Positions 4,373-62,199 of a stretch of DNA of 64,000 nucleotides are shown here, one piece after another (within the stretch, counting starts at the first letter, position 1; each line of letters opens with the position of its first letter). The stretch comes from Gammaproteobacteria bacterium (lineage in GTDB: Bacteria; Pseudomonadota; Gammaproteobacteria; Steroidobacterales; Steroidobacteraceae). The stretch is from assembly GCA_021773365.1 (NCBI GenBank), contig JAJFKF010000018.1:62001-126000 (forward strand). The letters run 5' to 3'. The translations under genes were made by a program, and so were the position numbers. Under the pieces are notes generated by a model. The model did no database searches and was not told the DNA's origin. It worked only from the letters and a program-made list of their open reading frames with translations.

Positions 4373-7300
4373 TCAGCGCCCGAAGCGCTTGGTGAAAGCG
4401 ATGGAATAGCGCCGCAGGCGCGGGTTACCCTCATAGGCGTAGCCGGGGAACAGCGGACTGGTGCTGGCCCGGATGGGCGGGTTGGTATTGAGCACGTTCT
4501 GCACCGACAGCTGCAGCTCCGCGTTCTCCAGCAGGCCGCGGGCGAAGCCCCATGCATTGTCGAAGCGGTAGCGGCCGTAGGCATCGTGGTAGGTCTGCGT
4601 GGGGATGAACGCCGAACCCTGGCTGAGCACCGCCGCGTCGCGAAGCGTGAGCGAGTTGGTGCTGGTGTACACGCGCGAGGCGTCGTAGTACTGCAGGTTC
4701 CAACCCAGCTCCAGCGGGCCGCGGCTCCATCTGAGTCCCGCGTTGGCGCGCCATTTCAGCGGACCATCGCTGTAGCCCACGATGTTGAGTTCCTCCGCGC
4801 CCGGTACCGGCTGCTGCGCCAGCCGCGGCTGCACGGTGGCGATCACATGGGCCGCGAAGGCGCCCAGGCGCGTGTTCCAGGTGTAGTCGGCCTGGATGTC
4901 CACCGCTTCCATCAGGCTGTGGGCGATATTGACCGGCCCCGCATTCAACTCACGAATCGTGCCGCCGGTGTAGCCCAGCGCCTGATCCGCCGGTGTCAGC
5001 GGATCGCGCACGATGGCGCCGGGGAAGCTATCTCCCAAGTCGATCAGCACCTGCGTATTCAGGGTACCGATCTCATCGATCTTCTCAATGCGGGTGTAGT
5101 CCAGCGACAACCGCAGGCCCGGCAGGCTCGCCGGGGTGAGAATCGCTCCTGCCGACCAGCTCTGCGAGTGCTCCGGGCGCAGCAGCAGGCTGCCTAAGAG
5201 GGAGTATTTCTCGACCGTGGCGCCGGTAATGATCTCACCATCGCGTTTGGGGTCCATGTACCCCGAGAACGCAAGAAAGGCCGGCGAGAAGTCAGCCTCG
5301 GAGAGCTGGAGAGGCGCCGGCGGCAGTATCCCTTCGCCATAGCTGACGCGCAGCGCCAGACTTTCCAGGGGCGTGTATCGCACGCCCAGCGTGTACTGAT
5401 GGCCGGTGACCTCGTTGATCTGCATCGGCACATCCGGAAAGGGGCCGTCGGCAGAGGGCACGGTTATTTGTGAGCCAAAAGGGTGCGTACCGGTGCGGGT
5501 GGCATCGTGGCGGTAGGAGGCCTGCAGATCGAGACCGAGCAGCCCACGCCGCGCATTGACCGCGGATACCAACGGCGCGGTCAGCTCGGTGTACACGCTC
5601 TCGGTGGTCGAGCCAATTTCAGGATAGTAATAGTAGGTATAGCTCGGAGTGGTTGCGCCCGGGACAGACTGAGTCAAGAGCCGATCCCCGGTGTATTGCT
5701 GCCGCTGCTCCAGCAGCGCAGCCAGCCGCAGCGGCCCAGCGGGCAGCTGCAGCAGCGGGCCGGCCACGCGCAGCGTGGCATTCTTCTGCACCGCCGGCCA
5801 TTCTGCCCCATAGAAGTCGCTTTGCCCCGGGCCGCCTGGGACGTAGCTGGAGAAATCCAGCGGATAGGCATTCACATCACTCAAGGGATTGAGTCGCCCA
5901 TCGATCAGGGCGGCGGCACCGTCCGCTGTAAACAGGTCTCGCGGGTAGTCAAACGTGGAATTCGACTGGCTCCAGCTGTATTCAGCCTGCACCGTCCACT
6001 GCCGCGGCAGGCGCACGATCAGTCCGCCGCCGACCTGCTCCGTCAATGAATCAAAGTGGGTTCGCAGCCGGCTGGCATCGTAACCGGGCAGTGGAATGGA
6101 CAGCCTCACCGCCTCGGTGAAGGGATTGTTCGCGCCCACCGGCAGGGTGAGATTGGCATCTGTCAAAGCTGAGTAGCTCCCCATGCGCAATGAGCGGCTG
6201 TCATAGCGGGAGATATCGACGAAGGCCTCGACATGATCGGTAAACTCACGCCGCAGATTCAGCGCCAGCGAGCGGACCGTGGGCGAATTAAGCAGCGAGT
6301 ACTGGTTGCCGCGCGGATCGTTGGGCAGATCCAGGTTGTAGTGCCCGGCAGTGCCCAGAAAGGCCGCGCCATTGTCACTGGCCGGGCCCGCATACCCCAC
6401 CGGCACGTGGGCAATGGGCGAATTCAGGGAGCCGCCTGCGAGCAGTTCCAGGCTTCTGCCGCTGATGCTCCTCACATTGGTGGTGTAGCCGTACACCGGC
6501 TGGCTTGCGGCCACAAGAGCCGCATGATTGTTTTCATCCTGCAGACGGCGGGAGCGGACCGTGAAATCCCGGTCGCCGATGTACAGGGGATTGCTGTCGC
6601 GGTAGCTGGCCATCACCATCACACGGGTGCGTCCGCCTTCCAGGGTAAAGCCGCCGGTGGCATCCAGCCGGCGCTCGGCGCCGCCGCCGGCGAAGGTGCC
6701 GTCGTAGCGGGCGCTGAGTTCCAGATCGTTGTAATTGCGTTTCAGAATGATGTTCACCACCCCGCCGGTGGCGCCGCCGCCGTAAATGCCGCCCGCCGTG
6801 GAGGGCAGGATCTCGATACGCTCCACTGCCGACATCGGGATGCCATTGATGTCCGGCTGACCGAAGTCAAAGGGACTGGCAACCCCCGGCATGCGCCGGC
6901 CGTTGACCAGGATCAGGGTCTGATCGGCGCCCAGGCCGCGCAGGTCGACGGTGCTTTGATCGCCCGACAGCCCACCGAGACTCTGGCCATTGCTGGCACG
7001 CGACTGGTTCATCGGCAGGCGGGTCCTCAGGAAGGTCTCCAGGTCCGGCGCCATGGAGCGGCTGATTTCCTCCGCATCGAACACCACGTAGGGCTGCACA
7101 TCGTCCTCGGTACGGCGGATGTCGGTGTTGGAGGTGCGGGCGCCTTTGACCAGGATTTCGGGGATGCCCTTGGAAGAGGCGGCCGTCTCCGGTTCGGCAG
7201 AGGACCGGCGGTCGATCACTTCGTCCGCGGAGGACTCGCCGCCGGTAACCCGCGCCAGCCGAAGTTCTCCCGGGGTCGCGTGCTTCACCGCACCGGTGGC

Positions 7301-7642
7301 GCCGGACGAAGTGGAGATGGCGCTCTGCGCCGACCGGATGGTGACGGTGCGCGGATTGATGAAGTGGTACTGCAGCTGCGATTTAGCCAGCAGCTGCTTC
7401 AGCGCCGCCTCCGGCGTGAAGTCGCCCGACAGGGGTGGCGCCATCAGGTTCCGGGCTACCTTAGAGGAAACAATCATCTGCAGGCCGGTCTGCTGGGCGA
7501 ACTCGGCCAGCGCATCGGCCAGCGGCTGCGCGGCGATCTTCAGGCTCACCGGCTGGCCGGCGGCGCGGTCCTCCGCCGTGGCAGGCCCGGCGAGCACGAG
7601 CGCGCATCCAAGGATCAGGACGCTGCGGATAAGACTGTTCAT
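4373..7642 (-). CDS. STN-domain TonB-dependent outer-membrane receptor
   Basis: 1089 aa. Signal peptide at residues 1-23 (ends PATA). STN/secretin domain about 30-105 (LADALAEFAQQTGLQ), used in signalling to FecR-type anti-sigma proteins. Plug about 170-300 with LVNGRRMPGV and IEILPSTAGGIYGGGATGGVVNIIL. The rest is a long beta-barrel ending RRYSIAFTKRFGR. Divergent from fecI-fecR at 7815-9385, so likely part of a surface-signalling uptake system; the large barrel and domain order resemble receptors of Xanthomonadales-like bacteria, and the substrate is unknown. GGGAGAG precedes the ATG. Strongly paralogous to the receptor at 55122-58409, especially in the plug and C-terminus. Confidence 0.92.
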   Translation of the reverse strand: MNSLIRSVLILGCALVLAGPATAEDRAAGQPVSLKIAAQPLADALAEFAQQTGLQMIVSSKVARNLMAPPLSGDFTPEAALKQLLAKSQLQYHFINPRTVTIRSAQSAISTSSGATGAVKHATPGELRLARVTGGESSADEVIDRRSSAEPETAASSKGIPEILVKGARTSNTDIRRTEDDVQPYVVFDAEEISRSMAPDLETFLRTRLPMNQSRASNGQSLGGLSGDQSTVDLRGLGADQTLILVNGRRMPGVASPFDFGQPDINGIPMSAVERIEILPSTAGGIYGGGATGGVVNIILKRNYNDLELSARYDGTFAGGGAERRLDATGGFTLEGGRTRVMVMASYRDSNPLYIGDRDFTVRSRRLQDENNHAALVAASQPVYGYTTNVRSISGRSLELLAGGSLNSPIAHVPVGYAGPASDNGAAFLGTAGHYNLDLPNDPRGNQYSLLNSPTVRSLALNLRREFTDHVEAFVDISRYDSRSLRMGSYSALTDANLTLPVGANNPFTEAVRLSIPLPGYDASRLRTHFDSLTEQVGGGLIVRLPRQWTVQAEYSWSQSNSTFDYPRDLFTADGAAALIDGRLNPLSDVNAYPLDFSSYVPGGPGQSDFYGAEWPAVQKNATLRVAGPLLQLPAGPLRLAALLEQRQQYTGDRLLTQSVPGATTPSYTYYYYPEIGSTTESVYTELTAPLVSAVNARRGLLGLDLQASYRHDATRTGTHPFGSQITVPSADGPFPDVPMQINEVTGHQYTLGVRYTPLESLALRVSYGEGILPPAPLQLSEADFSPAFLAFSGYMDPKRDGEIITGATVEKYSLLGSLLLRPEHSQSWSAGAILTPASLPGLRLSLDYTRIEKIDEIGTLNTQVLIDLGDSFPGAIVRDPLTPADQALGYTGGTIRELNAGPVNIAHSLMEAVDIQADYTWNTRLGAFAAHVIATVQPRLAQQPVPGAEELNIVGYSDGPLKWRANAGLRWSRGPLELGWNLQYYDASRVYTSTNSLTLRDAAVLSQGSAFIPTQTYHDAYGRYRFDNAWGFARGLLENAELQLSVQNVLNTNPPIRASTSPLFPGYAYEGNPRLRRYSIAFTKRFGR

Positions 7643-7659
7643 GGCCGGCTCTCCCGTGG

Positions 7660-7692
7660 GTATGGTTGTAACGCGCGGCGCCGCAAGTCAAT
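7660..7692 (-). promoter_or_regulatory. Candidate ECF-type promoter of first TonB receptor
   Basis: Reading the minus strand, ATTGACTTGC (7692-7683) is followed about 20 nt later by ATAC (7663-7660), 18 nt from the receptor ATG. The same ATTGACTTGC...ATAC layout precedes the other receptor gene at 58454-58484. This copy is the weaker match, with a 3-nt longer spacing. Confidence 0.4.
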
Positions 7693-7733
7693 GATTCAGT
7701 GGCCGTGCACAGCGTGTGTGGGGCGGGAAGCGG

Positions 7734-7771
7734 AAAAGGGGGTAGAAATGTCGCTTCGACTACCCCCTTTT
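7734..7771. terminator. Terminator-like hairpin in the divergent receptor/fecI region
   Basis: Perfect 12-bp stem AAAAGGGGGTAG (7734-7745) / CTACCCCCTTTT (7760-7771), 14-nt loop, with T-rich 3' sides in both directions. A small second hairpin GCCTG-tcg-CAGGC follows at 7773-7785. Because the flanking genes diverge, it may sit in the fecI leader as an attenuator or insulate the two promoters. Confidence 0.6.
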
Positions 7772-7814
7772 TGCCTGTCGCAGGCACATAGGGAACGGAG
7801 GGCCATTCTGCGTC

Positions 7815-8360
7815 GTGGACACTGAATCTGAAATCGGGACCGCCGGGACCACAAAGGCCGCCGCGAAGTTCGCGCAGGCCGCCTTTGAGAAGCACTACCG
7901 GGCGCTGCACCGCTACCTGGTGCGCCGGCTGCCGCGCAAACAGGACGCAAATGACCTGATACAGGAGGTGTTCCTGCGGGTGCTGCGGCTGGATCGCAGC
8001 GAAATGGTGCGCAAGCCCCAGGCCTATGTGTATGGCATTGCCTCGCATGTGGTGCACGAGCACCGGATGCGCGAGCACGGCGACCGGGTGACCTACGACT
8101 CTCATGCGGTGGAGCAGATGGCCGAACACCCGGCCGAACTGTCCCCCGACGAACTGGCCGACCGGCTGGGCCTGCAGCGGGAGTTCGCGCGCGCGCTGGC
8201 GCGGCTGTCCCCCACGCATCAGGCTGTGCTGCTGCTGCACAAACGCGACGGGCTGTCGCGCGAGGAGGTGGCGGTGGCGCTGAACCTTTCCGCGCACACG
8301 GTGAAGAAGTATGTCTGTCAGGCGCTGGCGCAGGTCAGGGCCGAGTGGAGGGAGGCATGA
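7815..8360 (+). CDS. FecI-type ECF sigma-70 factor
   Basis: 181 aa from a GTG at 7815, with GGAGGG at 7797-7802 (12 nt away). Sigma region 2 is seen as FEKHYRALHRYLVRRL and DANDLIQEVFLRVLR (about 30-62); region 4 as LSPTHQAVLLLHKRDGLSREEVA and LSAHTVKKYVCQALAQVR (about 136-178). Extracytoplasmic-function sigma factors of this group direct transcription of the adjacent TonB receptor in response to a signal relayed through FecR. ATGA overlap with fecR, divergent from the receptor. Confidence 0.9.
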   Translation: MDTESEIGTAGTTKAAAKFAQAAFEKHYRALHRYLVRRLPRKQDANDLIQEVFLRVLRLDRSEMVRKPQAYVYGIASHVVHEHRMREHGDRVTYDSHAVEQMAEHPAELSPDELADRLGLQREFARALARLSPTHQAVLLLHKRDGLSREEVAVALNLSAHTVKKYVCQALAQVRAEWREA

Positions 8361-9385
8361 ACGGCCAGGCACAGCGCGAGGAAACTCTGCGGATCGCGGA
8401 GCGGGCAGCGGAGTGGCTGTGCGCGCTGGAGGACGGCGGCGCGCGGGAGCGTGCGGCCTTCGCGGAATGGGTGAGCGCCTCGCCGCTGCACCTGCAGGAA
8501 TTTCTGTTCATGTCGGCGCTGGAAAGCGAAAGCCGGCGGCTGGATCCGGAGCGCAGGATCGCAGTGGACGAAATCCTGGCACGCGCCGGCGGAAACGTCA
8601 TCGGACTTCGAAACAAAGCGCCTCGCCCCGGCAGCGGCGCGTACCACCCTGCGCGGCAAACAGGCAGAAGGACATGGTGGCTGGGTGCGGCGGCGGCCAG
8701 CGCACTGCTCCTGGTGGCTGCCTGGACGACGCTGATCTCCGGGGGAGAACGCTATGTCACCGCCATCGGCGAGCAACGCCGGGTCGAACTGCTGGACGGC
8801 TCGGTGGTGCACCTCAATACCCGATCACGCGTGGAGGTGACCTTCACCGATAGCGCGCGTGACATCCGCCTGCTCGAGGGCGAGGCCCTGTTCACGGTCG
8901 AACGCGATGCGGCACGCCCGTTCAGCGTGTACTCCGGCGGCACCGTCATCCGCGCCATCGGCACGCAATTCAACGTGCTGCGCCGGCCTTCGGGCACGAC
9001 GGTGCAGGTGATCGAAGGCCGGGTGCGGGTTTCGACCGGTGTTCGTCAGGAACCACTGTCGATCGGCGAGGAAGTGCGCGTCGACGACGGCGGCCATCTC
9101 AGAAAACGCAGGGCGCCGGATGCGACCCACCTGGCGGCGTGGCAGCGCGGCCGCCTGGTGTTCCGTGATGAAACCCTGGAGGACATCGCTGCGGAGTTCA
9201 ATCGCTACAACCGTGGCGCGCGCATCGTGCTGCCCGCCGGCGAGGTGCGCAGCCGGCGCTACACCGCCGTCTTCGATGCCGACGATCCCGATTCGCTGCT
9301 TGAGTTCCTGCGCCAGGACACCGGCCTGCGGGTCGAGGATGGCGGTACGGAAATTCTCATCCAGGCCGACGAGCACCGGCGCTAG
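8357..9385 (+). CDS. FecR-type anti-sigma/sigma-regulator
   Basis: 342 aa from the ATG at 8357, preceded by a strong GGAGGGAGG; an upstream GTG at 8345 is in frame but less likely. N-terminal cytoplasmic DUF4880-like region (AERAAEWLCALEDG), one membrane segment around WWLGAAAASALLLVAAWTTL, periplasmic FecR domain (VELLDGSVVHLNTRSRVEV, EGEALFTVERDAARPFSV), and C-terminal DUF4974/STN-like part (LEDIAAEFNRYN). Expected role: holds or activates FecI according to receptor occupancy. Confidence 0.9.
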   Translation: MNGQAQREETLRIAERAAEWLCALEDGGARERAAFAEWVSASPLHLQEFLFMSALESESRRLDPERRIAVDEILARAGGNVIGLRNKAPRPGSGAYHPARQTGRRTWWLGAAAASALLLVAAWTTLISGGERYVTAIGEQRRVELLDGSVVHLNTRSRVEVTFTDSARDIRLLEGEALFTVERDAARPFSVYSGGTVIRAIGTQFNVLRRPSGTTVQVIEGRVRVSTGVRQEPLSIGEEVRVDDGGHLRKRRAPDATHLAAWQRGRLVFRDETLEDIAAEFNRYNRGARIVLPAGEVRSRRYTAVFDADDPDSLLEFLRQDTGLRVEDGGTEILIQADEHRR

Positions 9386-32110: not shown

Positions 32111-33544
32111 TCACAAACCGTATTTGCGCAACTTCTCAACCAGCGTGGTGCGGTTCATTTTCAGTAATCGTGCCGCCTCGGCAACCGTGCCACCGGCTTC
32201 TACCAGCGCGCGGCGGATCAGCGCCATCTCCACGCTGCTCAGGTGATCCTTCAGGTCCAGTCCGTCGGCCGTCCACACCAGGCTATCGACCAGGCCGTCA
32301 ACACCCCCGCCGCCATCCCGCTGCACGACCTGCGCAGCCTGAATTTGCGCGTCATGCGAAGTCTGCGCCAGTGATGGCTCCTGCCGATAGCGCGCCGGCA
32401 GATCACCGACCTCGATGCGCCGCCCCGTATCGAGAATAGCCAGCCGCTCGAGCAGGTTGGCCAGCTCGCGTACGTTACCCGGCCATTCATGACCACACAG
32501 CGCGTGCAGCGCCCCGGCATCGAACCTCAGTGCCGTGCCCCTGCGGGCCAGGAGGTCCTCGATGAGCCGCGGCAGATCCTGGGCGCGTTCGCGCAACGGC
32601 GGCATCTCGATGGGAAATACATTGAGCCGGTAGTACAGATCCTCACGGAACCAGCCCTCACGCACACCCGCCTCCAGGTCACGGTGCGTCGCCGCCACGA
32701 TGCGCGCATTGCAGGGCACGGTGCGGTTACTGCCGACCCGCTGAATGGTGCGTTCCTGCAGCACGCGCAGGAGCTTGACCTGCATCTGCAGGCTCATGTC
32801 GCCGATCTCGTCGAGGAACAGCGTACCGCCCTCGGCAAACTCGAAGCGCCCCTGTCGCGCCGACAATGCGCCGGTGAAGGCACCGCGCTCGTGGCCGAAC
32901 AGCTCGCTTTCGAGGAGTTCTGCGGGGATGGCGCCGCAGTTCACTGGCACGAACGGACCCGCCGCGCGGGCGGAGCACTCGTGAACATGGCGCGCGGCCA
33001 CTTCCTTGCCCGTACCGGATTCGCCGAGGATGAGCACATGCGCATCGTGCGGCGCGACCCGCTCGATGAGCCGGCGCACTTCAACGATGGCGGGTGAGCG
33101 GCCGGAGGGCGCATGGACGTGGCCGGACGTTGGCGCCGGCAGGCGGCGCATTTCGTGCGCGCGCTTCAGAATGGATGACAGCTGCGGATAGCGGATGGGC
33201 AACTCCATCTGCAGACAGGGCAGCTCCTCGCACTGGGGCCAGTCAACCTCACCGGTCTCTCCGCTCACCCGTACCAGGGGCATGCGTGGATCGTAGCTGC
33301 GCAACTGTTCAAGAAAGTGGTGCAGGGCGCCGGTGGACGCCTGCTGTCCGAGAAGGACTGCGATCCAGTCCTGCTGCTGCGGCGCTGGCCACTGCACGGC
33401 GTGAAAATCGGCCACGACGATGGGATCGTAGTCAAGAAAGCGCAGCACCGTTTCCCAGGTGCGGGACTGAGCCTGATCGGGCTCGATGACGAGAACCTTG
33501 GCGTCAGTCACTAGTTCTTCTTGCGATGCGGCGATGACCGCCAT
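32111..33544 (-). CDS. fleQ: Sigma-54-dependent flagellar master regulator FleQ
   Basis: 477 aa as the longest frame; GTG at 33511 ([11 protein letters not shown]) with AAGAAG upstream may be the true start. N-terminal FleQ receiver-like domain, AAA+ domain with Walker [16 protein letters not shown] and the sigma-54 contact motif GAFTGA, C-terminal Fis-type HTH ([23 protein letters not shown]). The RxxxR-type c-di-GMP-responsive activator of class II flagellar genes; fits the sigma-54 sites found before flgA, flgB and fliD. Confidence 0.92.
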
Positions 33545-34953: not shown

Positions 34954-36360
34954 CTATCTACCGCGCTGTTGCGCGAGAATGGCGCTGCCGTTGAGGGTGT
35001 TGATCTGCTGGGTGAGGAAGTTGCTGGTGTTGTTCAGCTGCGCCACCAGGGAATCCATGGCGGTGAACTGCGCGCGCAGGCGTGCTTCCAAAGTTGTCAG
35101 ACGCTGCTCCAGTACTTCGCGCTGTTCGTCGATGACATCGATGCTGGACTTCAGGCCGGCGGTGCGCGCCTCCAGCAGGCCATTGCTGCCGGTATAGGTT
35201 TCGATCAGCGCATCGAGCCGACGGGCCAGTCCGTCCACCGGCGCGCGCTCTCCCGCTTCGTTTGCAAACAGCCCACCCACCTGGTCGAAATCAGTGGCGA
35301 TAAACCCGTCCAGCCGCGCCGCGTTGACCTCCAGCGTGCCGTCCACGTTGCTCACGATGCCGATCTCGGCCAGCGTCGAGAACGAATCGCTCACACCGCT
35401 GACCTGCACACCCAGTTCGCGGCGCACCGCGTACATGAAATCGCGCAGAGTGGAATCACCCAGCAGCGGCCCGCCCGTGCCACTGGCGGCATTGAAACTG
35501 TTCAGGCCCCGCAGACTGCTCACCAGCGAGTTGTAGGCGGTGACGAAGGTGTTCACCGACTGTCTGGCGGCGTCCTTGTTATAGACGATGCCCACCGGCG
35601 TGGTCACATCCTCCTCGGATGGGGCGAGCAGGTTGAAGGTCAGCCCGTCCACTGCGGTGGTAACGCTATTGCTGGCGCTTTCGTGGGCAAACCCGTTGAT
35701 GACGATGCGCGAGTCCTGCGCGGCCTGCCCCTCGGTGAGCCCGGCGATCAGGGCCTGCAGTCCACCATCGCCCGGCGTCTGCGTCAGTTCGATGGTGTTG
35801 TCAGCGCCGGTCAGGGTAGAGGAGAGAATCAGCCGCGAGCCAACGCCGGTTTCATTGACGATGCTGGCTACTACCCCCGTATTGTTGCTGGCGCTGTTGA
35901 TGGCGTTGCGGATATCTCCCAGAGCGTTGGCTTCCTCGCCGATGACGATATCGAAGGATTGCTCGCCGATGGCGATGTGCAGAGTTCCGGTGCCCACCGC
36001 CGTATTCGAGGTGGCATATGCGGCGGAAACCAGCCGGTGCGAGGTGGCCAGCCGTTCGACCTCCACGTCATAGCTGCTGGGCGCCGCTGTGGCGCTGGCC
36101 GTAACGGTCAGAACGGTGTTGTCGCCCACCGTCACCGATCGGCCCTGGAACTGGGTGACATCCTTCAGCGGCGCTAGTGCGGACTGCAGTGAATCCAGCG
36201 CGCTGCGGAAGGAACCGAAGGCGGACAGCTTGGCCTGGAAGCCGGCCTCGCGGGCGGCCAGCCGCGCACCGCGGGCACTGCCCTGCGCGGCAACCAGCTG
36301 CGTGACCAGGCCATCGATATCGATGCCCGAACCGATCCCTGATGAAATAAGACTGGCCAT
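34954..36360 (-). CDS. fliD: Flagellar filament cap protein FliD (hook-associated protein 2)
   Basis: 468 aa. N-terminal FliD_N (GSGIDIDGLVTQLVAAQGSA) and C-terminal FliD_C (GLARRLDALIETYTGSNGLLEARTAGLKSSID) with terminal coiled regions; central Flagellin_IN motif. Caps the filament and folds incoming flagellin. A sigma-54 -24/-12 site lies at 36373-36388, with +1 predicted 2 nt before the ATG, which lacks a Shine-Dalgarno sequence. Confidence 0.95.
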   Translation of the reverse strand: MASLISSGIGSGIDIDGLVTQLVAAQGSARGARLAAREAGFQAKLSAFGSFRSALDSLQSALAPLKDVTQFQGRSVTVGDNTVLTVTASATAAPSSYDVEVERLATSHRLVSAAYATSNTAVGTGTLHIAIGEQSFDIVIGEEANALGDIRNAINSASNNTGVVASIVNETGVGSRLILSSTLTGADNTIELTQTPGDGGLQALIAGLTEGQAAQDSRIVINGFAHESASNSVTTAVDGLTFNLLAPSEEDVTTPVGIVYNKDAARQSVNTFVTAYNSLVSSLRGLNSFNAASGTGGPLLGDSTLRDFMYAVRRELGVQVSGVSDSFSTLAEIGIVSNVDGTLEVNAARLDGFIATDFDQVGGLFANEAGERAPVDGLARRLDALIETYTGSNGLLEARTAGLKSSIDVIDEQREVLEQRLTTLEARLRAQFTAMDSLVAQLNNTSNFLTQQINTLNGSAILAQQRGR

Positions 36361-36372
36361 TAGCGCGAATAA

Positions 36373-36388
36373 AGCAAGTTCGGTGCCA
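36373..36388 (-). promoter_or_regulatory. Sigma-54 promoter of fliD
   Basis: Minus strand TGGCACC-GAAC-TTGCT (36388-36373) matches the consensus TGGCACG-N4-TTGCW with GG-N10-GC spacing. The C of -12 is at 36374, giving +1 near 36362; the fliD ATG starts at 36360. Confidence 0.85.
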
Positions 36389-36390
36389 AC

Positions 36391-36750
36391 TCAGGCCAGC
36401 GCATCGAACAGCAGGCCCGCCTCGCGCAGGGTGCGAGCCAGTGTCAGCAGTTCCTCGGGTGGAATCTGCCGCACGATTTCATTGGTTTCCGGATTGACCA
36501 CCGTGATGACGGTGCGCCCGCTGGCCTCGTCGACACGAAAGTTGAGGTTACGCTGGCTGCTCTCCAGAAACCGGTTCAGACCTTCCACCACGCGGCTCAG
36601 ATCTACCGGTCGCGGCGCGGGCCGCGGCAAATCCTTGCCGCTGTCTGCAGTCGGAGGGGGGGCTTCAGTTGCCTGAGGTTTTACTGCGGCGCGGGCTATC
36701 GCTGCCTGGCGCAGGTCCAGTGTCTGGCTGGACAACACATCGTTCACCAT
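36391..36750 (-). CDS. flaG: Flagellar protein FlaG
   Basis: 119 aa from the ATG at 36750 (a longer frame starts at 36777). FlaG domain in the C-terminal half: LNRFLESSQRNLNFRVDEASGRTVITVVNPETNEIVRQIPPEE. The N-terminal half is Pro/Ala-rich and disordered. Located between fliC and fliD, as in Vibrio and Pseudomonas; modulates filament length in some species. Expression probably by readthrough from fliC or its own unseen promoter. Confidence 0.9.
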   Translation of the reverse strand: MVNDVLSSQTLDLRQAAIARAAVKPQATEAPPPTADSGKDLPRPAPRPVDLSRVVEGLNRFLESSQRNLNFRVDEASGRTVITVVNPETNEIVRQIPPEELLTLARTLREAGLLFDALA

Positions 36751-36792
36751 GACACACCGTTGATGTGATTGATCCACCTCTTATCTGAGGGA

Positions 36793-38540: not shown

Positions 38541-38567
38541 TTATCGGGCGCCGCGGCGACTTCTTTA
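38541..38567 (-). promoter_or_regulatory. Sigma-28 (FliA) promoter of fliC
   Basis: Minus strand TAAA (38567-38564), exactly 15 nt, CCCGATAA (38548-38541), one base from consensus TAAA-N15-GCCGATAA. Predicted +1 about 38530. The stretch 38441-38863 otherwise holds only the fliC leader and the divergent upstream region of the small gene at 38864; no gene seen. Confidence 0.8.
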
Positions 38568-50061: not shown

Positions 50062-50466
50062 CTATTGACCTGAAATAGCCGATTCAAGACCGGCAATGCG
50101 GCGGTTGATGAACATGAGACTGGCCTGGTAACGCACGGCGCTCTCCGAGAACGCGGCTTGCTCGATGGGCACTTCCACGGTGTTGCCATCCAGCGAAGGC
50201 TGAAAGGGCACGCGGTACTTCATTTCCGCACCGCCGGCGGGAGCGCCAGCAATAGCACCGGCCGTGTTCATGTGATGGGCGTGGGTAGCTTTCAGCGCCA
50301 TTGCCTTCCCGCCTTCACCCTTGAGTACCGCGGCGAAATCCAAATCACGCGCCTTGTAGTTGGGGGTGTCGGCATTGGAGAGGTTGGCGGCCAGCACGCC
50401 GAGGCGCTCGCCGTGGAGCTTCAGGGCGGTTTCGTGAATGCCGAAAATGTTGCTGAGTGCCTGCAT
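50062..50466 (-). CDS. flgB: Proximal rod protein FlgB
   Basis: 134 aa. GIHETALKLHGERLGVLAANLSNADTPNYKARDLDFAAVL is the FlgB N-terminal motif. First gene of the 11-gene flgB-flgL operon. No Shine-Dalgarno before the ATG; a sigma-54 promoter at 50481-50496 puts +1 about 4 nt upstream of the start codon, so the operon mRNA may be nearly leaderless. Confidence 0.95.
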   Translation of the reverse strand: MQALSNIFGIHETALKLHGERLGVLAANLSNADTPNYKARDLDFAAVLKGEGGKAMALKATHAHHMNTAGAIAGAPAGGAEMKYRVPFQPSLDGNTVEVPIEQAAFSESAVRYQASLMFINRRIAGLESAISGQ

Positions 50467-50480
50467 GACGGGATGGATTC

Positions 50481-50496
50481 AGCAACTTCCGTGCCT
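50481..50496 (-). promoter_or_regulatory. Sigma-54 promoter of flgB operon
   Basis: Minus strand AGGCACG-GAAG-TTGCT (50496-50481) fits TGGCACG-N4-TTGCW except the first base; GG-N10-GC spacing holds. C of the -12 element at 50482 gives +1 near 50470; ATG at 50466. Confidence 0.8.
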
Positions 50497-50763: not shown

Positions 50764-50779
50764 TGGCACGCGCATTGCA
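50764..50779 (+). promoter_or_regulatory. Sigma-54 promoter of flgA
   Basis: TGGCACG-CGCA-TTGCA is a perfect match to the -24/-12 consensus. C of -12 at 50778 places +1 at about 50790, one nt before the flgA ATG (50791). Confidence 0.88.
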
Positions 50780-50790
50780 CATGCAGCAGC

Positions 50791-51489
50791 ATGAAGAAGT
50801 TCCTTGCCGTACTGGCATCCGCGCTGACGATGGCCGCGTATGCCGGTGATGCACAGTGGCAGTCGATCGCATCGATCGAGGCGGCCGCGCGGGCGCATGT
50901 TGAAGCTCACGGCCTGAAGATCGGTACACGGCAGCAACTGGAGGCCGGGCCACTGGATCCACGACTGCTGCTGGCCAACTGCCCGCGCAAGCTGGTGACA
51001 GCGATGGCGCCCGGGGTGAATGCGCCGCCACGCATGACTGTTGAGGTTCGCTGTCCGGGTGCGGGTGGATGGAAGGTCTATGTGCCGGTGCTGATCAGCG
51101 CCTTCGATCGCGCAGTCGTGGTAACGCGCGCCCTCGAACGTGGGCACGTGCTGACCGCGGCCGACATGACCGTGGCCGATGCCGAAGTCTCCGGCCTGCC
51201 GGCCGGCTATGCGCGTGACGTTGCGGCGGTGGAAGGCGTGCGGCTGGCGAGGCCAGTGGGCGCTGGCACAGTGCTGACGCCGGCTGTGCTGAAGATCGAC
51301 CCACTGGTACAGCGCGGCGAGCGGGTAACGACATTGGCGCAGCTGAACGGAATTTCGGTGCGTTCACAGGCGGTCGCCCTGGCCTCCGGCGCGGCCAATC
51401 AACGCATTAAGTTAAAAAACCTGTCCTCGGGCAGGGAGATCGAAGGCGTGGTCCGGAGCAAGGGTCTGGTCGAGATTCTCGTTCACTGA
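50791..51489 (+). CDS. flgA: P-ring assembly chaperone FlgA
   Basis: 232 aa from the ATG at 50791; the frame extends upstream through the sigma-54 promoter and repeats, so earlier starts are unlikely. Signal peptide KKFLAVLASALTMAAYA, then SAF-like C-terminal domain (ALERGHVLTAADMTVADAEVSGLPAGY, LTPAVLKIDPLVQRGERVTTLAQ). Periplasmic chaperone for FlgI. First gene of the divergent flgA-flgM-flgN unit. Confidence 0.94.
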   Translation: MKKFLAVLASALTMAAYAGDAQWQSIASIEAAARAHVEAHGLKIGTRQQLEAGPLDPRLLLANCPRKLVTAMAPGVNAPPRMTVEVRCPGAGGWKVYVPVLISAFDRAVVVTRALERGHVLTAADMTVADAEVSGLPAGYARDVAAVEGVRLARPVGAGTVLTPAVLKIDPLVQRGERVTTLAQLNGISVRSQAVALASGAANQRIKLKNLSSGREIEGVVRSKGLVEILVH

Positions 51490-51505: not shown

Positions 51506-51532
51506 TAAAGTTCTGCCCATCCCGGACGATAC
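51506..51532 (+). promoter_or_regulatory. Sigma-28 (FliA) promoter of flgM
   Basis: TAAA (51506-51509), exactly 15 nt, GACGATAC (51525-51532), 6 of 8 bases of the GCCGATAA box with exact spacing. Lies in the flgA-flgM gap, so flgM would be made both by sigma-54 readthrough and by sigma-28, the usual feedback design. Confidence 0.75.
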
Positions 51533-55121: not shown

Positions 55122-58100
55122 CTACAAACCGAAACGCCTGGTGAAGGCGATGGAGTAGCGCCGCAGGCGCGCGTTGCCCTCGGTGGCGTAGCCGCGAACG
55201 ATGAAGGCGCCGGTGGAGACCACGATGGGCGGGCTGGTGTCGAGCACATTCTGCACCGAGATCTGCAGCTCGGCGTTCTCCAGCAAACCGCCGGCGAAAC
55301 CGGACATGTTTTCGAAACGGTAGCGGCCGTATACGTCGTGATAGGTCTGAGTGGGGATCAGGGCCGAACCCTGATCGAGCACGTCGGCATCGCGGCTCGC
55401 ATTCGAGGCCGTGCTGGTATACACCAGCGAGGCATCGTAGTACTGCATGTTCCAGCCCAGATCCCAGGCGCCGCGGCTCCAGCGCAGGCCCGCATTGCCC
55501 CGCCACTTCAGCGGGCCGTTGCTGTAGCCCACGGTATTGGTCTCATCACTATCCGGCGTGGGCTGGCGCAAGAGGTGCGGCTGTACAGTGGCGATGAGGT
55601 TGGCGGCAAACAATCCGAAACGCGTCTCCCAGCGATAGTCGGCCTGAATGTCGACTGCCTCCACCAGACTCCTGGTGATATTGACCTGCCCGCCATCGAA
55701 TTCCCGGATCGTGCCGCCCGTGTAGCCCAGCGCCGCGTCCGCCGCAGTCAGCTCGTTACGCACGATCTTGCCCGGAAACTTGTCCTCCAGGTCGAGCAAT
55801 ACCTGCGGACTCAGCGCACCGATCTCGTCGGTTTTCTCGATGCGGGTGTAGTCCAGCGACAGCCTGAAACCCGGCAGGTTCACCGGCGTGAAAATCACCC
55901 CGCCCGACCAGCTCGCGGAGCGCTCCGGGCGCAGCAGCAGGCTGCCACCGGCATTGCTTGTGTATCGCTCGATCGTTGTGGTGTTGACAGGCAGTCCACC
56001 CCGCTGCGGATCACGCGCGCTGCTCAAAAGCAATCTAGTCAAAAATGAGGAAACATCCACCGCGGACAACTGGAGCGGCGCAGGCGCCAGTATCCCCTCG
56101 CCATAGCTGAGCCGCAGCGCCATATTCTCCACCGGCGTGTAGCGAAAACCCAGCGTGTACTGGTTGCCCGTCACCGTGTTCGTCTGGAACGGCAGATCCG
56201 GAAACGGGCCGTCGGGCGAGGGCACGGCCACGGATCTTTCGGAGTTCCCCCGGGTCGTAGTCTCGGTCGTGTCGTGGCGATAGGATGCACGCAGGTCCAG
56301 GCCCAGCAATCCCGGCCGCGCACTGGTCGCCGAAATCAGCGGCGCGTTCAGCTCCGCATAGCCGCTGTCGGTACTCGAACCCACTTCAGGGTAATAGGTG
56401 AAAGTGGGCGTGCCGCCGTCGCCGGGATAGTTGGAGTAAACGCGATCACCGGTGAACTGCTCGCGACGCTCCAGCAGGGCGGAGAGGCGCAGCGGGCCAC
56501 CGGGCAGTTGCAACAGCGGGCCGGACACCCGCAACGTGGCATTGTCCCGTTCCGCGGAGAATTCGTAGTACTGGTGCTCCTCGTCCGGATAGAAAGCGGA
56601 GAAGTCCAGCGGCCAGGCATTCACATCCCGCAGCGGATCCAGCCGTCCATCGATCAGCGCCGTTTCGCCGTCCGCGATCAATGGTGGCGGCGGTTCGCGG
56701 CGAGTGCTGCTCGATCGACCCAGGCTGTACTCGCCCTGCACCGTCCACTCCCGCGGCAGGCGCACGATCACGCCACCGCCAAGCTGTTCGCTCAGGGACT
56801 GATAGGACGTCCGTATTCTGCCAACCTCATAGCCGACCATCGGCACCATCAGTCTCACCTCCTGGGCAAACGGGTTGTTCGGGCCAACCGGCAGGAAGAC
56901 ATCGGCCAGGCCGCTCCCGCTGAAACGCCCTATGCGCACCGCACGGTTGTCGTAGCGAGTGGCATCCACGAACGCCTCGATGTGATCAGAAAACGTCCGA
57001 CGCAGGTTCAACTGCAGCGAGCGCACCGTGGGGGCATGCAGCAGCGCGTACTGCCTGCCCAGCACATCGTTGGCCGGCATGATGTTGTACTCATTGGCCG
57101 TACCCAGAAACGCCGCACCGTTGTCGCTGTCCGGCCCCGCATAGCCCACCGGGACATGGGCGATGGGCGATCCCAGCTCACGCCCGTCCGTCAGCTCCAG
57201 ATCGCTGCCATCGGCGCTGAGAATGTTGGTGGTATAGCCATGCACCGGAATGCTCGCGGCAACAAAGAGCTCATGATTGTCCAGGTTCTTGTCCAGCAAG
57301 GCCCGTGCGCGTGCCGCAAAGTCCCGATCACCAACGTACAGGGGATTGCCATCGCGATAGCTGCCCGTGATCATCACGTGGGTACGCCCGCCTTCCAGGG
57401 TGAAGCCCGCCGCGGCGTCCAGGCGCCGCTCGGCAGCGCCGCCGGCGAAGGTGCCGTCGTAGCGTGCGGCGAGTTCCAGGTCGTTGTAGTTGCGCTTCAA
57501 GATGATATTGACCACTCCGCCGGTGGCTCCACCGCCGTAGATGCCGCCGGCCGTGGAGGGCAGGATCTCGATGCGCTCGACCGCCGAGAGCGGAATGCCG
57601 TTGATATCCGGCTGAAGAATGTCGGTGTTGGTGGCCACTCCAGGCATGCGCCGGCCGTTGACCAGGATCAGGGTCTGATCGGCGCCCAGGCCGCGCAGAT
57701 CGATCGAGCTTTGGTTGCCGCGAGTGCCGGAAATACTCTGCCCCTCGCTCTCGCGCGACTGATTCATCGGCAGACGGGTTTTCAGGAATGTCTCCAGGTC
57801 CGGCGCCATGGAACGCCCGATCTCCTCCGCATCAAAGACTACATAGGGCTGCACATCATCCTCGGTGCGGCGAATGTCAGTGTTGGAACTGCGCGAACCT
57901 TTTACGAGGATTTCCGGAATACCTTTATTTGCAGAGATATCGCCGGCTTGCTGATCCGCAGGGGACTGGACCTTCTCCGCCGCCTCGGTAGCGACTTCCA
58001 CGGTACCTGTCCTTGCATCATTTTCCGCCCGCACCAGATGAAGTCCTGCCTTGTCTGTCATTCGGGATGAGTGAGTCGGCGCGGCCGAAGAAGACGGCGC

Positions 58101-58409
58101 CGCCGCCGATACCATGATCGCGCCGCTGGCTTCGTCCGTTCTCAGGCGTAACGCCGTTCCCTTGATCAGTCGCTGTACGGCCTCACGCGGCGTCAGTACC
58201 CCACTGACCCCCTCTGTCTTCACGCCCCTCAGCTCGCTGCTGGTGTAGATGACATTGACGCCGAACTGCCGGGCTACCGCCTCCAGTGCATCATCGAGAT
58301 CTCCCGCGTTGACGTTCACCTCTTTCGGCGTCTCGGCGCAGACAACGGACATCCCCAGGACGGTGGCCAGCGCCACCAGCACAGCGTGAAGAGCAGTCAT
58401 TCCAGGCAT
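55122..58409 (-). CDS. STN-domain TonB-dependent outer-membrane receptor (islet)
   Basis: 1095 aa. Signal peptide to about residue 25 (ends VVCA), STN domain about 30-105 (LDDALEAVARQFGVNVIYTSSELRG), a Ser/Ala-rich linker, plug with KGIPEILVKGSRSSNTDIRRTEDD and LVNGRRMPGV, barrel ending RRYSIAFTRRFGL. The plug and C-terminus are nearly identical to the receptor at 4373-7642 while the barrel loops differ, so substrates may differ. Downstream of fecI-fecR in the same operon direction, though its own promoter motif lies at 58454-58484. A Met at codon 4 is an alternative start. Between tRNA-Thr and its 3' fragment, so probably acquired. Confidence 0.92.
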   Translation of the reverse strand: MPGMTALHAVLVALATVLGMSVVCAETPKEVNVNAGDLDDALEAVARQFGVNVIYTSSELRGVKTEGVSGVLTPREAVQRLIKGTALRLRTDEASGAIMVSAAAPSSSAAPTHSSRMTDKAGLHLVRAENDARTGTVEVATEAAEKVQSPADQQAGDISANKGIPEILVKGSRSSNTDIRRTEDDVQPYVVFDAEEIGRSMAPDLETFLKTRLPMNQSRESEGQSISGTRGNQSSIDLRGLGADQTLILVNGRRMPGVATNTDILQPDINGIPLSAVERIEILPSTAGGIYGGGATGGVVNIILKRNYNDLELAARYDGTFAGGAAERRLDAAAGFTLEGGRTHVMITGSYRDGNPLYVGDRDFAARARALLDKNLDNHELFVAASIPVHGYTTNILSADGSDLELTDGRELGSPIAHVPVGYAGPDSDNGAAFLGTANEYNIMPANDVLGRQYALLHAPTVRSLQLNLRRTFSDHIEAFVDATRYDNRAVRIGRFSGSGLADVFLPVGPNNPFAQEVRLMVPMVGYEVGRIRTSYQSLSEQLGGGVIVRLPREWTVQGEYSLGRSSSTRREPPPPLIADGETALIDGRLDPLRDVNAWPLDFSAFYPDEEHQYYEFSAERDNATLRVSGPLLQLPGGPLRLSALLERREQFTGDRVYSNYPGDGGTPTFTYYPEVGSSTDSGYAELNAPLISATSARPGLLGLDLRASYRHDTTETTTRGNSERSVAVPSPDGPFPDLPFQTNTVTGNQYTLGFRYTPVENMALRLSYGEGILAPAPLQLSAVDVSSFLTRLLLSSARDPQRGGLPVNTTTIERYTSNAGGSLLLRPERSASWSGGVIFTPVNLPGFRLSLDYTRIEKTDEIGALSPQVLLDLEDKFPGKIVRNELTAADAALGYTGGTIREFDGGQVNITRSLVEAVDIQADYRWETRFGLFAANLIATVQPHLLRQPTPDSDETNTVGYSNGPLKWRGNAGLRWSRGAWDLGWNMQYYDASLVYTSTASNASRDADVLDQGSALIPTQTYHDVYGRYRFENMSGFAGGLLENAELQISVQNVLDTSPPIVVSTGAFIVRGYATEGNARLRRYSIAFTRRFGL

Positions 58410-58453
58410 GTCGCTTCCTCCGGATCATCCCGATATGGGCTGTTTTCAGGAAG

Positions 58454-58484
58454 GACGTATGGTTATCTCAAACCCGGCAAGTCA
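58454..58484 (-). promoter_or_regulatory. Candidate ECF (FecI-type) promoter of islet TonB receptor
   Basis: Minus strand TGACTTGCCGGGTTTG (58484-58469), 8 nt, ATACGTC (58460-58454), 45 nt before the receptor ATG. The identical pair with identical spacing occurs on the plus strand at 60128-60158, and a looser version precedes the other receptor. Arrangement suits recognition by the FecI-type sigma factors encoded nearby. Confidence 0.65.
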
Positions 58485-58502
58485 ATTTAACGCCATTGCA
58501 GA

Positions 58503-59540
58503 TTACCGCGCCGACAACACGGTCCGGTCTCCTGACCGGGATACCTTGAGGGAAAGGCCATCCTCGATCAGCCGGACAAACGGATCCAGATCCGTGGACC
58601 GGAACACACCACCCACCTCGATGGCGGCGATTCCCGGATCCTCGATGAAAATCTGTCGCTCGTTGTAGCGATTGAACTCCGCGACCGCCTCCATCAGCGG
58701 CGTGTTACGGAAGGTCAGGATACCCGTCCGCCAGGTCAGTTGCTGTTCGATCTCCGCGATCGATTGCTCCTGCACGCGCACGCCGGTGCGCTCGGCACGC
58801 GCAACCGCACCCGGCGACAACAGCACCCCGGGCGCCTGCTCGCCTGCAACCGCTTGAGGAGAGGCCATCAATCGCACCGCGCCCTCGGTCACCGCCACCC
58901 GGATGTTCTCACCCTCCCGGCGTACCGAGAACTGCGTGCCCACCGCTACGATTTGCTTCTCGCCCGCGGTCACCACAAAGGGCCGACTGGGATCCTTGGC
59001 GACCTCGAAGAAAGCCTCGCCCCGCTGCAAGTCGATGCGACGCGCATGTTTGTCGACGACGATCCGAACCCTGCTATTGGTATTGAGTATGACCCGTGAG
59101 CCGTCTGCCATGGGGACCGCCGTCAATCCGCCAACTTCAGTGCTGTAACTATTGAGCCCGAAAATCTCGTTGCGGAACAGGAACAGCGCGAAAACCACCG
59201 CCAGCAGCACACTGGCGACCAACGCATAGCGCGGCACCCGGCTTCCATGCACTGGCAGAGACGCCTGCGAAGTATCAGGTTCATCAAAAGTATCCGACAG
59301 CCGCTGCTCCGGCAGCGCATCCGAACCCAGCGCGCCGAGCCGCCCGACCTCCCCCCAGGTCCTCTTGAAGCGGTAGTAGGCCACTTGACGACTCATCGAG
59401 CCGCTCAGCCAGCGCTCAAACGCCACCTCGTCCTGCTCACTCCACGGCCCGGTCTCGCGTCGCGCTATCCAGCTGACCGCCGCCTGCTCTGCCTGCTCTC
59501 TACTTTCCATGCTGGGGCTCAATGTCACTTTCGTGCTCAT
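58503..59540 (-). CDS. FecR-type anti-sigma/sigma-regulator (islet)
   Basis: 345 aa from 59540, overlapping fecI by 41 bp; a Met at 59510 would reduce the overlap to 11 bp. N-terminal DUF4880-like region (AAVSWIARRETGPWSEQDEVAFERWLSGS), TM segment PRYALVASVLLAVVFALFLFR, periplasmic FecR domain (GSRVILNTNSRVRIVVDKHARRIDLQRGEAFFEVAKDPSRPFVV) and C-terminal DUF4974/STN-like part (LMEAVAEFNRYNERQIFI). Partner of the sigma factor and STN receptor beside it. Confidence 0.9.
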   Translation of the reverse strand: MSTKVTLSPSMESREQAEQAAVSWIARRETGPWSEQDEVAFERWLSGSMSRQVAYYRFKRTWGEVGRLGALGSDALPEQRLSDTFDEPDTSQASLPVHGSRVPRYALVASVLLAVVFALFLFRNEIFGLNSYSTEVGGLTAVPMADGSRVILNTNSRVRIVVDKHARRIDLQRGEAFFEVAKDPSRPFVVTAGEKQIVAVGTQFSVRREGENIRVAVTEGAVRLMASPQAVAGEQAPGVLLSPGAVARAERTGVRVQEQSIAEIEQQLTWRTGILTFRNTPLMEAVAEFNRYNERQIFIEDPGIAAIEVGGVFRSTDLDPFVRLIEDGLSLKVSRSGDRTVLSAR

Positions 59541-60072
59541 GGTTCACTCTATCCGTGCGGATAGCGTTTCCATTCAGGGCCTCGGACAGGGTTTTGACCG
59601 CTCGGTATAAATGCTTCTCCACCGTTGCCTCGGCCAACCCCAGACGGACGGCTACCGCCTTCTGGGGCAACCCCTCTATCTTGCGCATCCACAGCACTTC
59701 ACGGCAGCGGCGCGGTAGCCGGTCGAATAGATGCGCCAGCCGTTGCAGCTGCTGGCGCCCACTGGCCTGCTGCTCCGTCGAGATGTCATCTACAAGGACG
59801 TTTGTCACCGCCAAACCTTCCAACTGATCTATTTTCACCACTCGATCGTGGCGGGTACGGTCGATCAGGAGATTGCGCGCGGTGGCAAACAGAAACGCCC
59901 GGGGCACCGTCGGCCGCACCGCGCTCGCTGATTCCAATACACGAATATAGATATCGTTTCTTAAATCCTCGACATCATGGGCGCGACTACGCTTCTGGGC
60001 CAGATAGCGCGTCAGCGCCGCCTCGTAAGGCAGAATCTCCTGAATAAACCAGGCTTCCAGGGCTTTATCCAC
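59500..60072 (-). CDS. FecI-type ECF sigma-70 factor (islet)
   Basis: 190 aa. Region 2: ILPYEAALTRYLAQKRSRAHDVEDLRNDIYIRVLESA, RAFLFATARNLLIDRTRH; region 4: LFDRLPRRCREVLWMRKIEGLPQKAVAVRLGLAEATVEKHLYRAVKTL. First gene of the fecI-fecR-receptor operon of the islet. The sigma factor at 7815 belongs to a different branch. Its upstream region carries a receptor-type promoter motif pointing the other way (60128-60158). Confidence 0.9.
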   Translation of the reverse strand: MDKALEAWFIQEILPYEAALTRYLAQKRSRAHDVEDLRNDIYIRVLESASAVRPTVPRAFLFATARNLLIDRTRHDRVVKIDQLEGLAVTNVLVDDISTEQQASGRQQLQRLAHLFDRLPRRCREVLWMRKIEGLPQKAVAVRLGLAEATVEKHLYRAVKTLSEALNGNAIRTDRVNHEHESDIEPQHGK

Positions 60073-61425: not shown

Positions 61426-62199
61426 CTATGTGCGAGCCAGCAGGGCAAGGCCCTGCAGGACCAGGTCGGGCACGATCTGCAGCGTGGATGTCTGCATGAC
61501 CTTGCTTACCCGTTCCGCATCACCGCCCGTAAGAAATACACGGGGCTCGGCGCTGACGCGGCGGCTGACCTCTACTATGGCACGGTCCGCAACCGCGGCG
61601 ACCGCCAGCACCGCTCCATTGGCGACCGCCTGCGCGGTGTCGGTGGCCAGCAGGCCCGCGGCGCCGGAGGCATCGGCACCCGGCATGGCGGAAATCCGGC
61701 GTGCCTGGCGGGCAATGTCCGCGGTGCGGCCGAACAGCGCGTCTATCATCATCTGTACGCCCGGCAGAATCAGGCCGCCCAGATGCAGTCCTTTCGCGTC
61801 GACGCCGTCCACCGTCATCGCTGTGCCGGCATCGACCACGCAGGCCGCGCCGCCGGCCAGGCGATAAGCGGCGATCGTGGCCAGCCAGCGATCTACGCCA
61901 TGTGCTGCAACGTCGCGATAGGCATGCGTAACTCCTTGCGCAACGGCGGCCACAACCGCGAACTGCGGCTCAACCTGCCACAGCCGCTGCGCTTCGGCGG
62001 CGATGCGCTCCTGCATTTCAATGCCCGCCACGTTAGCTACCAGCAGGCGCGCGGGACGGAAGCGCTCACGGAACAGCGCCTTCATCCATACCTGTGGATC
62101 CGCGTCCCGATGCACCAGCAACTGCTGCGGTGTCAACGCGCCGTCGAGCAACTGGGCCCATTTGAGAGTGGTATTGCCGATATCCAGCAGCAGGATCAC
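61426..62199 (-). CDS. coaX: Type III pantothenate kinase
   Basis: 257 aa. DIGNTTLKWAQLLDG (phosphate-1), GVDRWLATIAAYRLAGG, DAGTAMTVDGVDAKGLHLGGLILPG, the CoaX ASKHA-fold motifs. First step of CoA synthesis, insensitive to CoA feedback in known members. 4-bp overlap with birA. Confidence 0.95.
   Translation of the reverse strand: MILLLDIGNTTLKWAQLLDGALTPQQLLVHRDADPQVWMKALFRERFRPARLLVANVAGIEMQERIAAEAQRLWQVEPQFAVVAAVAQGVTHAYRDVAAHGVDRWLATIAAYRLAGGAACVVDAGTAMTVDGVDAKGLHLGGLILPGVQMMIDALFGRTADIARQARRISAMPGADASGAAGLLATDTAQAVANGAVLAVAAVADRAIVEVSRRVSAEPRVFLTGGDAERVSKVMQTSTLQIVPDLVLQGLALLART

Follow-up and report, generated by a model that had tools for sequence, protein, structure and literature searches.

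The stretch of DNA analysed here (the window, 64,000 nucleotides) corresponds to positions 62001–126000 of contig C67 in a 3.97 Mb genome that is 99% complete and the sole member of its genus in the genome collection used. It holds a flagellar region in which flgA, recognised by its ChapFlgA domain, and flgB are divergently oriented, together with genes for a FleQ-type activator, fliC, flaG, fliD and the series flgB to flgL (fliC and flgC–L were identified from their translations). Sigma-54 is encoded on contig C88 (Sigma54_DBD match), and the source genome therefore contains both the sigma factor and an enhancer-binding activator. The N-terminus of FlgA, MKKFLAVLASALTMAAYA, resembles a signal peptide, as judged by eye and without a predictor. 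At flgB, an in-frame TGA lies just 5' of the ATG and no alternative start is found nearby. The window also contains two sets of TonB-type receptor, FecR-like and ECF sigma-like genes, at 4373–9385 and 55122–60072 (names read from translations).

Table 1. Genes and promoter features of the flagellar region, in window coordinates.
Feature	Coordinates	Strand	Remarks
flgA sigma-54 -24/-12 element	50764–50779	+	TGGCACGCGCATTGCA; TGGCACG-N4-TTGCA with CGCA as N4, perfect consensus
flgA predicted transcription start	50790–50791	+	nominal +1 = 50790 (C), by spacing convention
flgA, P-ring assembly chaperone	50791–51489	+	232 aa; Pfam ChapFlgA, SAF, ChapFlgA_N; ATG 50791–50793
flgB sigma-54-like element	50481–50496	-	AGGCACGGAAGTTGCT; near-consensus; nominal +1 = 50470, leader 4
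flgB, rod protein	50062–50466	-	Pfam Flg_bb_rod; ATG 4 nt past nominal +1, no Shine-Dalgarno
fliD sigma-54-like element	36373–36388	-	TGGCACCGAACTTGCT; near-consensus; nominal +1 = 36362, leader 2
fliD, filament cap	34954–36360	-	Pfam FliD_N, FliD_C; ATG 2 nt past nominal +1, no Shine-Dalgarno
flaG	36391–36777	-	Pfam FlaG; 2 bases separate its end from the fliD sigma-54 element
FleQ-type sigma-54 activator	32111–33544	-	Pfam Sigma54_activat, FleQ, HTH_8

In sigma-54 promoters the C of the GC dinucleotide is numbered -12, and this convention was used to place each +1. The flgA element presents the -24 GG and -12 GC motifs at the fixed spacing, with 0 mismatches to TGGCACG-N4-TTGCA, and leaves a nominal leader of a single nucleotide; the A of the ATG itself, preceded by a pyrimidine, is an alternative initiating purine. 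The sequence-only reading of this DNA, which had proposed a perfect element with its start one nucleotide before an ATG that lacks a Shine-Dalgarno sequence, is thus borne out at flgA. Markov shuffles (both strands) predict 0.017 perfect consensus strings per 64 kb, and one was observed, while sites with up to two mismatches show no excess in the window (10 observed, 10.55 expected). A weight matrix (PWM) built from the sigma-54 consensus ranks the sites of flgA (leader 1), fliD (leader 2) and flgB (leader 4) highest in the window. Across the genome, the pattern GGCAY-N5-TTGC is enriched (140 occurrences, 40 in the reversed control), and the spacing longer by one base (N6) shows no such excess (69 versus 73). 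A short overlapping frame begins with an out-of-frame ATG at 50781–50783 (+), which precedes the flgA ATG by 10 nt and also lies 5' of the predicted +1. When plasmids were searched with the flgA region, no match was obtained.

Two further strong sigma-54 sites lie outside the window on the minus strand of contig C23 of the source genome. By eye, a GC-rich inverted repeat and a T-run can be made out in the roughly 100 nt downstream of the one at about 4674–4560, TGGCACGGCCATTGCT. No ORF of 60 aa starts there, and Rfam gave only sub-threshold matches in this region (ncS54, sX13), which is a candidate for a sigma-54-dependent small RNA. The second, TGGCACGCCGACTGCA, at about 4433 and some 240 nt downstream of the other, precedes a short ORF that may encode a signal peptide.

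To quantify ribosome binding, we used the duplex energy of the 20 nt before the ATG with the 16S tail, for which 46 of 48 window rows were usable (pepQ and flgI were dropped owing to wrong start coordinates). By this measure flgA is the weakest of the 46 genes (+0.3) and fliD the second weakest (-0.3), with flgB (-1.1) within the weakest five. All three begin with ATG and none is preceded by a Shine-Dalgarno sequence. Energies between -5.1 and -15.9 were obtained for flgC, D, E, G, H, J, K, L, M and N and for fliC; flgF (-2.9) and flaG (-3.7) are weak too. Folding of the first 40 nt from the predicted 5' ends revealed no unusually open structure (z-scores 0.53, 0.28 and -0.93).

The arrangement at flgA had been said to recur at flgB and fliD, and in the source genome it does, with no Shine-Dalgarno sequence at either gene, although both sites are imperfect and both leaders slightly longer than that of flgA. 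At fliD, read-through from flaG is possible in view of the short distance between the end of flaG and the promoter element. A general leaderless design of sigma-54 genes, on the other hand, was rejected, since other such genes of the same genome are leadered: flrB (leader 54, GTG start, Shine-Dalgarno energy -10.8), fliL (27; -5.8), pilA (57 or more) and a C40 gene (31, with GAGGAG as Shine-Dalgarno). Conservation of the flgB geometry was likewise rejected. The flgB sites of relatives have their ATGs mainly 19–60 nt downstream, and an ATG at +1 to +3 was found in 0/30 family/order sites and 1/69 sites of named genomes (together 1/99), the lone case, L173 at +1, having another in-frame ATG at +31. 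Widening the interval to -2 to +6 gives 3/69 named sites (L141 and L176 at 6, L173 at 1), all three with a further in-frame ATG at 27–31, the usual place, and 0 of 29 family/order relatives. For fliD, 13 of 29 relatives have a site (PWM of at least 11.5), with ATG leaders of 17 nt or more, so that conserved geometry was rejected here also; the exceptions are L117, with a TTG only, and L131, with an additional TTG at +6. Near-leaderless flgB and fliD are therefore close to private to the source genome in this sample. L141 (contig DAIDHD010000036.1), whose FlgB is the most similar among the named loci, combines a near-leaderless flgA (leader 4) with flgB ATGs at +6 and +30.

The distance between sigma-54 site and start codon was then compared among flgA homologues. 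No start codon was selected manually: the position of each in-frame ATG ahead of the FlgA domain was taken relative to the highest-scoring sigma-54 site (PWM of at least 13, within 330 nt). The family/order set comprised 30 loci with 28 FlgA and 27 sites, and the named-genome set 80 loci with 61 FlgA and 34 sites. In the class-wide sample FlgA was present in 211 of 370 genomes; 145 of 150 places yielded 133 re-found FlgA and 87 sites, and the five further places (G416, G197, G321, G326 and a second one in G217) comprised two with a site, two without and one without upstream DNA, none of them near-leaderless, which brings the total to 89 sites. The sets overlap, the source genome, G049 and a few others being present in two of them.

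An flgA ATG lies at +1 to +3 in 13/27 family/order sites, 10/34 named sites and 16/89 class-wide sites (16/87 before the additions), the last spread over 12 family codes. At -2 to +6 the counts are 16/27, 12/34 and 17/89, leaving 11/27, 22/34 and 72/89 sites without the geometry, and many flgA genes have no sigma-54 site at all at the PWM threshold. Against the flgB controls at +1 to +3, Fisher's test gives 1.8e-10 for the family and named sets, a value that overstates independence, as p-values do here, because the rows are related. In the three sets ATGs at 7–18 are few (3 family/order, 1 named, 5 class-wide), so that the short-leader genes form a discrete class, separate from the leadered ones. 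In a pseudomonad-like genus (that of genome G202), in which the N-terminus of FlgA is similar to the Pseudomonas one, all 30 loci read (of 53 genomes) have an flgA ATG at +1 (25) or +2 (5). This genus also has 19 in-frame ATGs at 7–18, mostly at +13, which could be the true flgA start there. The scan of homologues thus bears out the short distance for flgA. As for the suggestion of a systematic sigma-54 design, it fails as a general rule, given the leadered flrB and fliL and the leadered flgB and fliD of relatives, but holds for flgA across numerous gammaproteobacterial families. Of the 53 genomes in the genus of G202 (G425–G475), 26 encode an additional FlgA that is more distant and perhaps belongs to a second flagellar system.

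The history of the trait was followed on an FlgA tree built by a quick method (67 rows, 30 of them near-leaderless; the genus of G202 left out, as from the Shine-Dalgarno and pyrimidine counts below). The near-leaderless state requires 13 changes, at least 6 of which are forced by the starred branches; shuffles require 22.2, and 0 of 500 shuffles were as low as 13. By this reconstruction the state is clustered yet was gained or lost repeatedly, gain and loss being indistinguishable, and the 13 changes indicate that it is easily acquired or given up. Recurring in so many families, the flgA geometry looks kept by selection. On the same tree, the genomes assigned to the family of the source genome include those closest to named Steroidobacter and Peristeroidobacter records, which makes Steroidobacteraceae (Gammaproteobacteria) the probable family.

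Taken globally, the predicted transcription of flgA with no leader, or with one of 1–4 nt, is well supported by sequence comparison. Across genomes, the median Shine-Dalgarno energy is -2.2 for near-leaderless flgA (n=42), -4.1 for leadered flgA (n=57) and -6.5 for leadered flgB (n=79), the median of random sequence being already -3.9. Counting against a leaderless reading, 29% of the near-leaderless flgA genes have an energy of -4 or lower.

How the message is started can be explained in several ways. It is quite conceivable, though we lean against it, that the sigma-54 site is real and that flgA carries a leader of 2–6 nt translated by a standard, Shine-Dalgarno-independent pathway (e.g. S1 or AUG recognition by the 30S subunit) rather than through a 5'-terminal AUG: nominal leaders in the family range over 1–6 nt, those of flgB and fliD in the source genome are 4 and 2 nt, and not one flgA ATG falls at -2 to 0 of the nominal +1. 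The narrow peak at +1/+2 speaks against this, as does the base before the ATG. Transcription usually starts at a pyrimidine-purine step, and a pyrimidine precedes the ATG in 36/42 near-leaderless flgA genes (31/57 leadered flgA, 47/79 leadered flgB), which fits initiation on the A itself. The element of C. jejuni sigma-54 promoters lies 8–13 nt upstream of the transcription start, according to the available text of PMC3847290. Since sigma-54 start positions vary by a few nucleotides, the flgA leader may be 1–5 nt long or the transcript may start within the ATG itself, and such short leaders may be translated poorly.

We regard it as unlikely that flgA is expressed mainly from a more distant promoter with a normal leader, the sigma-54 site being minor or accessory. 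In many relatives the best site is far upstream, or there is none at the PWM threshold, and the accessible text of two papers offers precedents, with V. cholerae flgA reported as RpoN- and FliA-independent (PMC3930126) and a Z. mobilis flgA transcript having a 173-nt leader (PMC7566282). However, the consensus at flgA is perfect, a leadered message would have no usable Shine-Dalgarno sequence, and the P. putida flgA promoter was FleQ-dependent in beta-galactosidase assays (available text of PMC5026340). Scanning of the flgB–flgA interval also revealed neither a sigma-70-like site nor a sigma-28-like site on the flgA strand. The same sigma-28 pattern marks fliC (38541–38567, -, 1 mismatch) and flgM (51506–51532, +, 2 mismatches), as expected for two late flagellar genes. 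A wrongly assigned start is very improbable. The open frame does reach upstream to 50665, where an ATG is one of several candidates for an upstream start, and an in-frame ATG exists at +40; but an upstream start would place the promoter inside flgA, starting at +40 would remove the signal peptide-like N-terminus, and in 17 of 72 near-leaderless flgA genes the frame offers no further start ahead of the domain. Mere coincidence of promoter-like strings with three start codons can be given almost no credence: matches with up to two mismatches do occur in the window at the chance rate, but the perfect site is very rare by expectation, each of the three highest-scoring PWM sites is at a flagellar start, and the flgA geometry is repeated in many genomes.

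The flgA mRNA is thus probably leaderless, transcribed from a sigma-54 promoter with its 5' end no more than about 3 nt from the AUG, and translated from a 5'-terminal AUG. Mechanistically, the FleQ-type protein encoded in the window would be the most likely activator of this promoter, the 5' end of the message would lie at the AUG or within some 3 nt of it, and ribosomes, finding no Shine-Dalgarno sequence, would begin on the terminal AUG, i.e. by leaderless initiation. In consequence, FlgA would be produced solely from transcripts that begin at the sigma-54 promoter, because a read-through mRNA carries a buried AUG without a Shine-Dalgarno sequence. Leaderlessness would also hold FlgA, a chaperone, at a low level.

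Parts of this proposal have counterparts in known systems. The flgA and flgB promoters of Pseudomonas are FleQ targets, P. putida flgA being listed among those found by ChIP-seq (PMC5026340 and PMC6120874, in their available portions), and of the ten named Pseudomonas loci, eight contained a recognisable flgA, all eight with the 1–2 nt geometry; the other two, L210 and L218, yielded no flgA in the sequence read. Halopseudomonas has it in 0/2. Within their available main text, neither of these two papers uses the term leaderless or discusses leader length. With the natural leaderless mRNAs of S. meliloti, Z. mobilis, C. jejuni and Leptospira, flgA shares a predicted start no more than 5 nt from the AUG and no Shine-Dalgarno sequence; in the text portions available, every leaderless start of S. 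meliloti begins with AUG (PMC3616915) and the limit for Z. mobilis was set at 5 nt or less (PMC7566282). The leaderless genes of C. jejuni, in contrast, have sigma-70 promoters and show poor conservation between species, as leaderless mRNAs do in Epsilonproteobacteria (PMC3847290, in part), whereas the flgA promoter is of the sigma-54 type and the state is repeated at one orthologue across families. Ordinary leadered sigma-54 genes, such as flgB of relatives and flrB and fliL here, have the same promoter element as flgA but ATGs mostly at 19–60 nt, usually with a Shine-Dalgarno sequence. PMC3616915 (in part) cites the occurrence of leaderless transcripts in P. putida, and the available main texts of PMC3460626 and PMC4362757 mention neither flgA nor leaderless mRNAs. 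Full-text literature searches listed no report of a leaderless flgA; supplementary start-site tables, which lie outside that coverage, may well list it.

The best reading is a leaderless sigma-54 flgA that would be a conserved variant assembled from known parts. More tentatively, and with some doubt on our side, it could be an old, selected gammaproteobacterial device that ties FlgA to FleQ/sigma-54 transcripts and has spread here to flgB and fliD. Leaderless mRNAs are few in those Gammaproteobacteria for which counts are quoted in the source text available (E. coli at most 5, Alteromonas 10, Legionella 12, Salmonella 23). If the proposal is true, flgA would represent a leaderless gene shared by orthologues and determined by a regulated class of promoter whose start is sharply defined, and leaderless translation could be studied on it as a natural model in a convenient host, for example Pseudomonas putida. 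It may also explain how the timing and level of a flagellar chaperone are controlled.
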